Origin: an uncultured Flavobacteriales bacterium
GTDB lineage: Bacteria; Bacteroidota; Bacteroidia; Flavobacteriales_G; Salibacteraceae
Assembly (NCBI GenBank): GCA_913045895.1
Contig: CAJWSQ010000003.1
Location: 1 to 43,305, forward strand
Direction: 5' to 3'
DNA: 43,305 nt
A program made the position numbers and the translations under genes. Below the pieces are notes generated by a model, which ran no database searches, was not told the DNA's origin, and saw only the letters and a list, made by a program, of their open reading frames with translations. Below, piece after piece: positions 19,643-21,583 of this stretch (position 1 is the stretch's first letter; every line of letters begins with the position of its first letter).

Positions 19643-19675
19643 ACCTAATCCAAAGTTTGAAACTTTGGATTAGGT
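19643..19675. repeat. 33-nt palindrome copy 1 (cas1-cas2 gap)
   Basis: Perfect palindrome with core TCCAAAGTTTGAAACTTTGGA and arms ACCTAA/TTAGGT. It fills most of the 59 nt between cas1 and cas2. Same family as the copies at 20714, 21124, 21274 and 21551. Confidence 0.9.
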
Positions 19676-19682
19676 GATTTCA

Positions 19683-20588
19683 TTAAATAATCGGATATGC
19701 AATCTTGCGTTTCTCCCCTTCAAAACACTGCATCAAACTTGCTGTAGTGCGTTGCATGCCCACCATCAACGGGCTTTTACTTTCTTCAATGACTACATCA
19801 ATGGTTGGAATAATCAGCAATTCTCTTTTCAATTCGGGTGTCAAATCATCTAAGTCCACATCTTGATATTCTTCTATGATATCCAGTACGATCAGATCAA
19901 CATAAGGTCTGTAAGGTTCCATCACATCATCAGCCAGGCAAAATGCATTGTATTTGTTACGGTGATGAATTCCTAAAGCAGGCAACATACCACTGGCTAC
20001 AATACTTCGGGCAACCACTGCTCGCAAAATAGCATACCCGTAATTCAACAGATTATTGGGTGGCTCACCATACCGAACTCTTCTGAAACCGCTTTCAGGC
20101 CCCAATAACTTAGCCCAATAATTGGCCGCAGCTCTTCCTTCGTAATTGTCAGGATCTCCGCTGCGTACTTTCGAAGACCAATACAACATGTTTTCAACAT
20201 CAATTCCCAATCGCTCTAAAACACGTGCTTGATTATCTATTTTACACTTTACCGTTTGTTGCCATAGATTTTTACGAAGAGGTTCGGATGCATCTAGCTG
20301 ATACCTCAGCTTTTCAGTATAAGTATGGTTGGCTGTCATGGGCATAAACAAACCCGATGGCATGTGGCGCGTATCGCAATTCAAGATAGCTGCATTGTTA
20401 TCGAGTAAGGCTGTTAGCAATGCTTGTGTAATGGTTACGCGTGGATGATCTAAGATAACCATGCCCACATCTTCAATGGGCACTGTTTTGCTCGGTTGAG
20501 CTAGCTCTTCGGGATATTCAACTTTGAGTTGTTGTCTTTCTTTTTTCAGGTAGGCTGGGTTTCCGAAATAGAGTGTTTTTTTGATCAT
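19683..20588 (-). CDS. cas1: CRISPR-associated integrase Cas1 (type II-C)
   Basis: 301 aa from the ATG at 20588 (MIKKTLYFGNPAYLKKER); the open frame runs further upstream to 20651, but the Cas1 fold starts here. Catalytic metal ligands are present: E150 in NYEGRAAANYW, H208 in LGIHHRNKYNAF, and E224 in LADDVMEPYRP (with D220/D221). It is the integrase of the Cas1-Cas2 complex. No csn2 or cas4 is present, which places the locus in subtype II-C. The gene is intact, so the small decayed array is not explained by loss of the integrase. A RAYT gene separates it from cas9. Confidence 0.96.
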   Translation of the reverse strand: MIKKTLYFGNPAYLKKERQQLKVEYPEELAQPSKTVPIEDVGMVILDHPRVTITQALLTALLDNNAAILNCDTRHMPSGLFMPMTANHTYTEKLRYQLDASEPLRKNLWQQTVKCKIDNQARVLERLGIDVENMLYWSSKVRSGDPDNYEGRAAANYWAKLLGPESGFRRVRYGEPPNNLLNYGYAILRAVVARSIVASGMLPALGIHHRNKYNAFCLADDVMEPYRPYVDLIVLDIIEEYQDVDLDDLTPELKRELLIIPTIDVVIEESKSPLMVGMQRTTASLMQCFEGEKRKIAYPII

Positions 20589-20693
20589 GTAGGTTGTTTT
20601 TGTTTTCCATCTGAGATTGAAAAAACAATGCCAAACTGGAAAAATCGACAACTAAAAGATACAACTACTTAATTACGTGCGTGTTAACAAAGT

Positions 20694-20710
20694 AATCTCG
20701 ACTCGAGATT
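20694..20710. repeat. 17-nt perfect palindrome between RAYT and cas1
   Basis: AATCTCGACTCGAGATT is symmetric about one base and followed on + by TTT. It sits 4 nt before a 33-nt palindrome copy. Possible operator or recombination scar; function unknown. Confidence 0.5.
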
Positions 20711-20713
20711 TTT

Positions 20714-20746
20714 AGCTTTTCCAAAGTTTGAAACTTTGGAAAAGCT
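20714..20746. repeat. 33-nt palindrome copy 2 (RAYT-cas1 gap)
   Basis: Perfect palindrome: the common core with arms AGCTTT/AAAGCT. It lies 20 nt downstream of the transposase stop codon. Confidence 0.9.
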
Positions 20747-20765
20747 ACTTGGATAAAACTGTAGC

Positions 20766-21527
20766 TTATTCAATCCCCGTAATTTGAGGTGGGTTTCGAT
20801 GAACAAATTGAAAGTTTGAAGTGCCATCAAAAAGCTCCAACACTTCATCTCGTTGTATAAAAGTGGGGTTATCTGTAATTAAAGTGCTGTATGAACTGTG
20901 CGCCCAGTCTTGTGGGTTTGAAACTAAACTTGCTTCCACCGGATTGTGATGGATGTAGTGGATGAGTTTGATTAGGTATTTGGAGTCTGTAACAGCCTTT
21001 CTTTTGAAGTTCTTCATGAAAAGGCTTCCTTTTCGGTTGTTCACTTTATTAAAACTCTGTGTGTAAGAACTAAAGAGTTTTGAAAACTGCTTAGATATTT
21101 CTTTTGAGAAGTTTTGCTCTTCTAGATTTTCCAAAGTTTGAAACTTTGGAAAATCTCTATTTTGCTTATTGAAGGCTTTAGAATAAGCATTAAAAAAATT
21201 GCTGAATTGTTTAGATAATAGACCTGACAGGTTTGGATTTATTTTCAAAATCTGGAATTTTGATTTTGCTTCTAGCTCTTCCAAAGTTTGGAACTTTGGA
21301 AGAGCTTTTAATAATTCCTTTTCACTTTTGATCTTCACCAAAAAATGAAAATGATTCGGCATAATACAATAGCAATAGGTTTGAGCTATTGGTGAAATAT
21401 AAAGCTGATACTTTTCTAAAAAGAAGCGGTAATTCTCTGCATCCAAAAAAAGCCTCTCGTTCCCATTAGCTCGATTGTATATGTGATACATTCTATCTGG
21501 CTCAAGTTGTGCTTGTTTATTGTGCAT
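20766..21527 (-). CDS. REP-associated tyrosine transposase (RAYT, Y1/HUH family)
   Basis: 253 aa. HUH motif YCIMPNHFHFLVKI (H59, H61) and the catalytic-Tyr region LIKLIHYIHHNPVEASLV (Y191) are intact; RMYHIYNRANGNERLF is the usual RAYT N-terminus. Such single-strand transposases act on palindromic REP hairpins. The centre is unusual. Two 33-nt palindromes are translated in frame (PKFQTLEELE about residues 77-86, PKFQTLENLE about 127-136), and the segment SKQFSNFFNAYSKAFNK (105-121) recurs as SKQFSKLFSSYTQSFNK (145-161), so the core is internally duplicated and the protein longer than usual. It lies between cas9 and cas1 in the same direction, probably an insertion in the cas operon. Catalytic residues suggest it may be active. 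Confidence 0.9.
   Translation of the reverse strand: MHNKQAQLEPDRMYHIYNRANGNERLFLDAENYRFFLEKYQLYISPIAQTYCYCIMPNHFHFLVKIKSEKELLKALPKFQTLEELEAKSKFQILKINPNLSGLLSKQFSNFFNAYSKAFNKQNRDFPKFQTLENLEEQNFSKEISKQFSKLFSSYTQSFNKVNNRKGSLFMKNFKRKAVTDSKYLIKLIHYIHHNPVEASLVSNPQDWAHSSYSTLITDNPTFIQRDEVLELFDGTSNFQFVHRNPPQITGIE
21124..21156. repeat. 33-nt palindrome copy 3, inside the transposase gene
   Basis: Perfect palindrome with arms AGATTT/AAATCT, translated on the minus strand as DFPKFQTLENL. Confidence 0.9.
21222..21264. repeat. Two further small palindromes inside the transposase gene
   Basis: ACCTGACAGGT (21222-21232) and TCAAAATCTGGAATTTTGA (21246-21264, a 7-bp stem). The second reads KFQILK, resembling the KFQTLE peptide of the 33-nt copies, and may be a decayed relative. 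Confidence 0.45.
21274..21306. repeat. 33-nt palindrome copy 4, inside the transposase gene
   Basis: Arms AGCTCT/AGAGCT and the common core with one central change (GTTTGGAAC). Translated as LPKFQTLEELE. Confidence 0.85.
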
Positions 21528-21550
21528 GGTTGAAAATTGAATGCTATTGA

Positions 21551-21583
21551 ACCACCTCCAAAGTTTGAAACTTTGCAGGTGGT
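21551..21583. repeat. 33-nt palindrome copy 5 (cas9-RAYT gap)
   Basis: Arms ACCACC/GGTGGT around the common core, one mismatch in the stem. It is 24 nt upstream of the RAYT start codon. Confidence 0.85.

Follow-up and report, generated by a model that had tools for sequence, protein, structure and literature searches.

The window – a 43,305-nucleotide stretch of DNA from an uncultured Flavobacteriales bacterium – carries a type II-C CRISPR operon on its minus strand, in which a RAYT gene sits between the effector and the adaptation genes in the order cas9 – RAYT – cas1 – cas2, as the earlier note had correctly read it (Table 1). The RAYT product matches family NF047646 with a score of 65.8 bits (E=3.8e-18), under the family cut-off of 80, the match being broken into two stretches by an internal insert. 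Profile comparison also relates it to PDB 4ER8 (E=3.4e-6), a RAYT in complex with a REP hairpin, and a fold model (pLDDT 86.7) has 4ER8 as its top PDB match (E=2.6e-6), so that the predicted structure has the RAYT fold. Residues H59, H61, and Y191 are invariant among 20 aligned relatives, and provide both the HUH motif and the single catalytic tyrosine; the NHFH and YIHHNP motifs fit subclasses 2.4 and 2.6 of the published subclass table, each in part. Relative to its counterpart in genome G008 the gene has a dN/dS ratio of approximately 0.14, a value indicative of purifying selection. The CRISPR array (18987-19220) is very short, and one repeat (GTTGTGAATTGCTTTCA...AATTGTATTGTACATTGGTCAAACACAAC) is apparently split by ~47 nt of other sequence at ~19065-19111, with a similar edge near 18970-18986; the G008 array is regular, with 76-nt spacing.

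Table 1. Genes and palindromes of the cas operon, in window coordinates.
Feature	Position	Strand	Description
cas2	19282..19623	-	113 aa; TIGR01573 E=1.6e-20
palindrome 1	19643..19675		arms ACCTAA; cas1-cas2 gap
cas1, type II	19683..20651	-	322 aa; TIGR03639 E=4.5e-85
palindrome 2	20714..20746		arms AGCTTT; RAYT-cas1 gap
RAYT (HUH/Y1 REP-associated tyrosine transposase)	20766..21527	-	253 aa; NHFHF and YIHHNP motifs intact
palindrome 3	21124..21156		arms AGATTT; in frame within RAYT gene, second internal copy, in internal duplication
palindrome 4	21274..21306		arms AGCTCT; in frame within RAYT gene
palindrome 5	21551..21583		arms ACCACC; cas9-RAYT gap; one C.C mismatch
sixth palindrome, second family (CCAGACAGGTTTC)	21614..21652		directly after cas9 stop; T-rich run follows, minus strand
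cas9	21652..26043	-	1463 aa, effector of host operon; TIGR01865 E=1.5e-129

The five 33-nt palindromes to which the earlier note had drawn attention are real; their coordinates hold, and none is expected from 100 dinucleotide shuffles. Each consists of 16 nt, one central base, and 16 nt, and folds as RNA into a 15-bp hairpin of about -17 to -21 kcal/mol. The outer arms differ among copies yet are complementary in every one, as had been claimed, although the core said to be common to all five is not entirely so: palindrome 4 differs at the center (GTTTGGAAC), and palindrome 5 has TTTGCA and therefore one C.C mismatch in its stem, its counterpart in G008 being a perfect stem. Similarly, the description of the palindromes as occupying gaps between cas genes is right for three intergenic copies, but copies 3 and 4 lie inside the RAYT gene. 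No T-run follows any of the five, and they were rejected as intrinsic terminators. Only a sixth palindrome (AAACCAGACAGGTTTCAGAAACCTGTCTGGTTT), overlooked in the original inventory, qualifies; it has the same form as the five, belongs to another family, and looks terminator-like in its place between cas9 and RAYT. It is single-copy in the window genome, as it is in G008, and shares its family with a palindrome inside the RAYT of G243; a decayed palindrome (AAACTAGACAGGTATTCTAAGCCTGTCTGGTTT) at 18894-18928 is of this family too.

A count of the core across the 3.06-Mb draft genome (83% complete) gave no sign of genome-wide spread: the five copies all lie within 2 kb, and there are no others at ≤1 or ≤3 mismatches. 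A dispersed REP family in the window genome was rejected because all five copies are local. Core matches number 1-13 per genome in 14 genomes (up to 3 mismatches), and at the other Y1 gene of the window genome (C158, L006) no 33-nt palindrome family was found in the 2.4-kb stretch examined.

Covariation of the arms was assessed by searching all fetched loci with the inner 19 nt only, allowing up to 2 mismatches, so that the outer arms were unselected. In the 38 distinct core copies recovered, arm positions 1-7 counted outward are paired in 100, 100, 100, 100, 97, 79, and 97% of copies, relative to 81, 85, 67, 89, 83, 32, and 98% with shuffled partners, the most variable position thus being paired at 79% against 32%. 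At position 8, just outside the 33 nt, pairing falls to 24%, which is background, and the drop beyond position 7 defines the element as exactly 33 nt. Its first letter is A and its last T, while the second letter varies freely along with its partner. Orthologous copies also differ by compensatory change, palindrome 4 having arms AGCTCT/AGAGCT in the window and AACTCT/AGAGTT in G008; the cas1-cas2 gap copy reads CCTAATCC/GGATTAGG in the window and CCTTTTCC/GGAAAAG in G008, where it has decayed and some changes are unpaired. These comparisons support the proposal of the earlier note that it is the hairpin, rather than the sequence of the arms, that is kept. Two adjacent mini-hairpins (arm ~ AACTTT-TCC-AAAGTT) were considered as the conserved structure and are not favoured, because the second letter varies among A, G, C, and T with its long-hairpin partner following, and because ACCTAA and ACCACC abolish the mini-hairpin.

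Palindromes 3 and 4 are read in one and the same frame, encoding LPKFQTLEELE and FPKFQTLENLE ([FL]PKFQTLE[NE]LE), and the insert they encode is a low-confidence part outside the HUH core of an otherwise confident model. Among eight RAYTs bearing this palindrome internally, identical residues have identical codons in 93% of cases in PKFxTLE and in 46% in the rest of the gene (Fisher P about 3e-39, from pairwise comparisons that are not independent). By this codon-level comparison the coding palindromes are conserved as DNA, not as protein. In G008 and G377, palindromes also bound N-terminal RAYT fragments as partial duplications, as they do the internal repeat of the window RAYT.

Of 105 RAYT loci examined, 73 have palindromes whose arms reach ≥14 bp and which lie no more than 250 nt from the RAYT reading-frame span. 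At RAYT loci, 71 of 134 palindromes are exactly 33 nt long, with differing sequences, compared with seven in 176 matched control windows. Inner palindromes match the flanking palindromes of the same RAYT at 27 of 33 positions on average and those of other RAYTs at 19 of 33 (0 of 2000 permutations), the exceptions being L012, L090, L095, and L097, which are unlike their own flanks. As in a REPtron, the hairpins flank the RAYT and match it specifically, and in G047 a single cas operon holds two RAYTs from different lineages, both of them accompanied by a palindrome family of their own. Around cas1 and cas2, such palindromes are present at all 12 loci with an embedded RAYT – partly because the RAYT gene carries one – and at none of 60 type II cas loci lacking one. 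Both the cognate families and this absence bear out strongly the suggestion that the palindromes are tied to RAYT, and the idea stands because the core, while absent elsewhere in the genome, is not present in relatives without a RAYT. Four of the 60 loci (L155, L157, L163, and L170) have a RAYT-like gene that is convergent near cas2 or the array; in three of them (L155, L157, and L163) this gene is only distantly related and is convergent to cas1-cas2 close to the array. Elsewhere, five identical 33-nt palindromes with ~490-bp spacing surround a tandemly duplicated RAYT (G081; L180 4390-6389).

The seat within a cas operon is recurrent. Sampling 395 genomes of the phylum gave 59 other type II cas1 loci, of which three have a RAYT between cas9 and cas1 (L125, L139, and L142), where about 0.02-0.15 are expected. 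Together with three type I-B operons, arranged cas3-RAYT-cas4-cas1 (L179), cas7-RAYT-cas4-cas1 (L210), and cas6-RAYT-cas1-cas2 (L202), these bring to six, among 64 sampled RAYTs, those that immediately precede adaptation genes, relative to ~0.03 expected under a rough neighbor model; the RAYT profile used (A1) included type II cas-embedded RAYTs and may favour their detection, but did not include the type I-B cases. Nine further cas-embedded cases (L012, L013, L018, L025, L026, L030, L032, L053, and L055) came from near relatives and from a protein search in which the window RAYT served as the seed. All cas-embedded RAYTs are co-directional with the cas genes; the L013 RAYT and one of those in L055 lie between cas1 and cas2, and the L026 RAYT is upstream of cas9. 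The association spans distant Bacteroidota and both type II-C and type I-B operons. In a tree built by a quick method the cas-embedded RAYTs are scattered, with ~10 label changes of which at least three are forced by well-supported (starred) branches, and a single ancestral cas-associated clade is not supported. By these sequence comparisons, RAYTs of several lineages have lodged repeatedly in cas operons, and in most cases the adaptation genes follow immediately downstream.

Most RAYTs adjoin housekeeping genes. In an Anaerolineales genome (L037) a RAYT at 4917-5642 has a type I restriction subunit gene on one side and a methyltransferase/specificity gene on the other, and an imperfect palindrome of its family is within the methyltransferase gene (6316-6349). 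A 33-nt palindrome of another family (AGACCTGTCAGGTTTT...) is within the open cas3 gene of L202 (7694-7726), and in the type I-B operon of L179 palindromes bound both the gene of a 23S rRNA intervening-sequence-like protein and an unknown ORF of 148 aa (7155-7526 and 9026-9472).

The palindromes are probably the cognate hairpins of the RAYT, the two forming a REPtron-like unit that is a guest of the type II-C operon. By analogy with E. coli TnpAREP and its REPs, the RAYT would recognize the 33-nt hairpin in single-stranded DNA and would cut and rejoin at the hairpin foot. Copies may arise locally – beside the RAYT, between neighboring cas genes, and as in-frame additions to a surface loop that the RAYT gene itself encodes – and this local copying is presumably how the hairpins spread, although no clean pair of an empty and a filled site, differing by one 33-nt insertion, was found among the loci compared. 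The outer arms would then drift while stem complementarity is kept. Such units have repeatedly moved into cas operons, mostly to sites immediately ahead of the adaptation genes, and the benefit would be mainly to the element itself rather than to CRISPR immunity. A direct role in CRISPR is conceivable, although it is not the favoured reading.

Several other explanations were weighed. The type I-B loci L179 and L210 share homologous DNA across cas1, cas4, and RAYT, which ends at the palindrome on the upstream side of RAYT; the effector genes past it differ, with protein identities of 90% for Cas1, 86% for Cas4, and 24% for Cas3. The window and G008 share Cas2 (91%), Cas1 (76%), and RAYT (72%), yet their Cas9 proteins (G008: L053 4825-10269) are ~31% identical over most of their length, an apparent effector replacement. 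Homology between them resumes in the last ~60 nt of cas9, near its stop, and the two agree at 92% of the non-coding cas9-RAYT gap despite differing at ≥60% of synonymous sites. With the palindrome-bounded partial RAYT duplications of G008 and G377, these cases would fit a model in which RAYT and palindromes mark the exchange point and hairpin cutting frees ends that help to drive effector gene swaps. RAYT cutting might be the cause of such swaps or duplications, but we think the model unlikely, as there are two cases only, effector and adaptation modules are also exchanged in RAYT-free cas loci, a conserved Cas9 end can mimic a breakpoint, and the RAYT position may be effect instead of cause. 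The broader proposition, in which RAYT-hairpin units recurrently occupy the effector/adaptation junction and either join in adaptation or promote effector exchange at the hairpins, is rather doubtful.

The location could also mean that RAYT is a co-opted adaptation accessory – a HUH endonuclease acting on pre-spacer DNA in single-stranded or hairpin form, or aiding Cas1-Cas2 in some other way – with the palindromes as its regulatory or docking sites. Its place immediately before the adaptation genes, seen in type II operons and in type I-B operons of three different arrangements, the excess over expectation among the 64 sampled RAYTs, the shared orientation with cas genes, and the purifying selection all speak for this; it is nonetheless improbable, given that only three of the 59 randomly sampled type II cas1 loci have a RAYT, that several unrelated lineages are involved, that most RAYTs adjoin housekeeping genes and a type I restriction operon contains another, and that some cas-embedded copies are broken or partial (e.g. 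L025, L210). More improbable still is that the palindromes are maintained mainly as RNA hairpins that stabilize or partition cas mRNA, with RAYT incidental: the co-directional operon, the stable 15-bp RNA hairpins, and the T-run after the sixth palindrome behind cas9 would agree with it, but no such element occurs at the 60 type II cas loci that lack an embedded RAYT, the RAYT gene itself contains two of the five, and the identical 33-nt form surrounds RAYTs beside unrelated genes. Finally, the covariation might be a mutational product rather than a mark of selection for hairpin function, as template switching is known to correct quasipalindromes in bacteria and would account for the codon-level conservation of the coding copies too. 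This is an unlikely source of the pattern, leaving unexplained the exact 33-nt length across unrelated families, the fixed terminal A...T, and the cognate matching to each RAYT; moreover, mismatches stand uncorrected in palindrome 5 and in the G008 cas1-cas2 copy.

The favoured reading, a RAYT-plus-hairpin guest of the cas operon, offers a foot-less, exactly 33-nt class of RAYT hairpins with covarying stems as clear substrates for probing RAYT action. It also makes testable whether single-strand transposases hitchhike with immunity genes, aid the reshuffling of CRISPR modules, or contribute to spacer acquisition. A link between RAYT and CRISPR is of note given that the presumed ancestors of Cas9 (IscB) are partners of Y1 transposases.

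The system resembles the REPtrons of E. coli and Stenotrophomonas (TnpAREP; PDB 4ER8; PMC8266576) in its HUH/Y1 fold, transposase-adjacent hairpins, and cognate specificity, but the canonical REPs of those systems have a GTAG foot and usually high copy number, whereas the palindromes here are 33 nt long, keep a fixed A...T edge, and have 1-13 matches in each genome. A GT[AG]G foot is directly adjacent at none of 76 flanks and within 6 nt at one, and we therefore do not call the palindromes canonical REPs, having neither such a foot nor many dispersed copies; the E. coli recognition rule is thus not simply transferable. RAYTs of TnpAY1 subclass 2.4, which includes members from Bacteroidetes, likewise carry REPs in frame in their own gene, but these have GT[AG]G / C[TC]AC feet (Quentin et al. 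2018, PMC6006769). What appears new is the location, as RAYTs upstream of CRISPR adaptation genes were not found described: the text of PMC6006769, in which in-frame REPs were already known, makes no mention of CRISPR, that of PMC10910872 has no match to HUH, and the association was not found in the open-access papers searched. Type II-C loci of Flavobacterium psychrophilum, in which cas9 exchange is also reported, similarly contain mobile-element genes (PMC10309648), but those – e.g. IS982 and IS256 – are recent DDE insertion sequences at other positions, unlike a single-copy RAYT of long residence between cas9 and cas1. The hairpins are ordinary in kind, as cognate hairpins of a RAYT, and unusual in form – 33 nt long, foot-less, and covarying.
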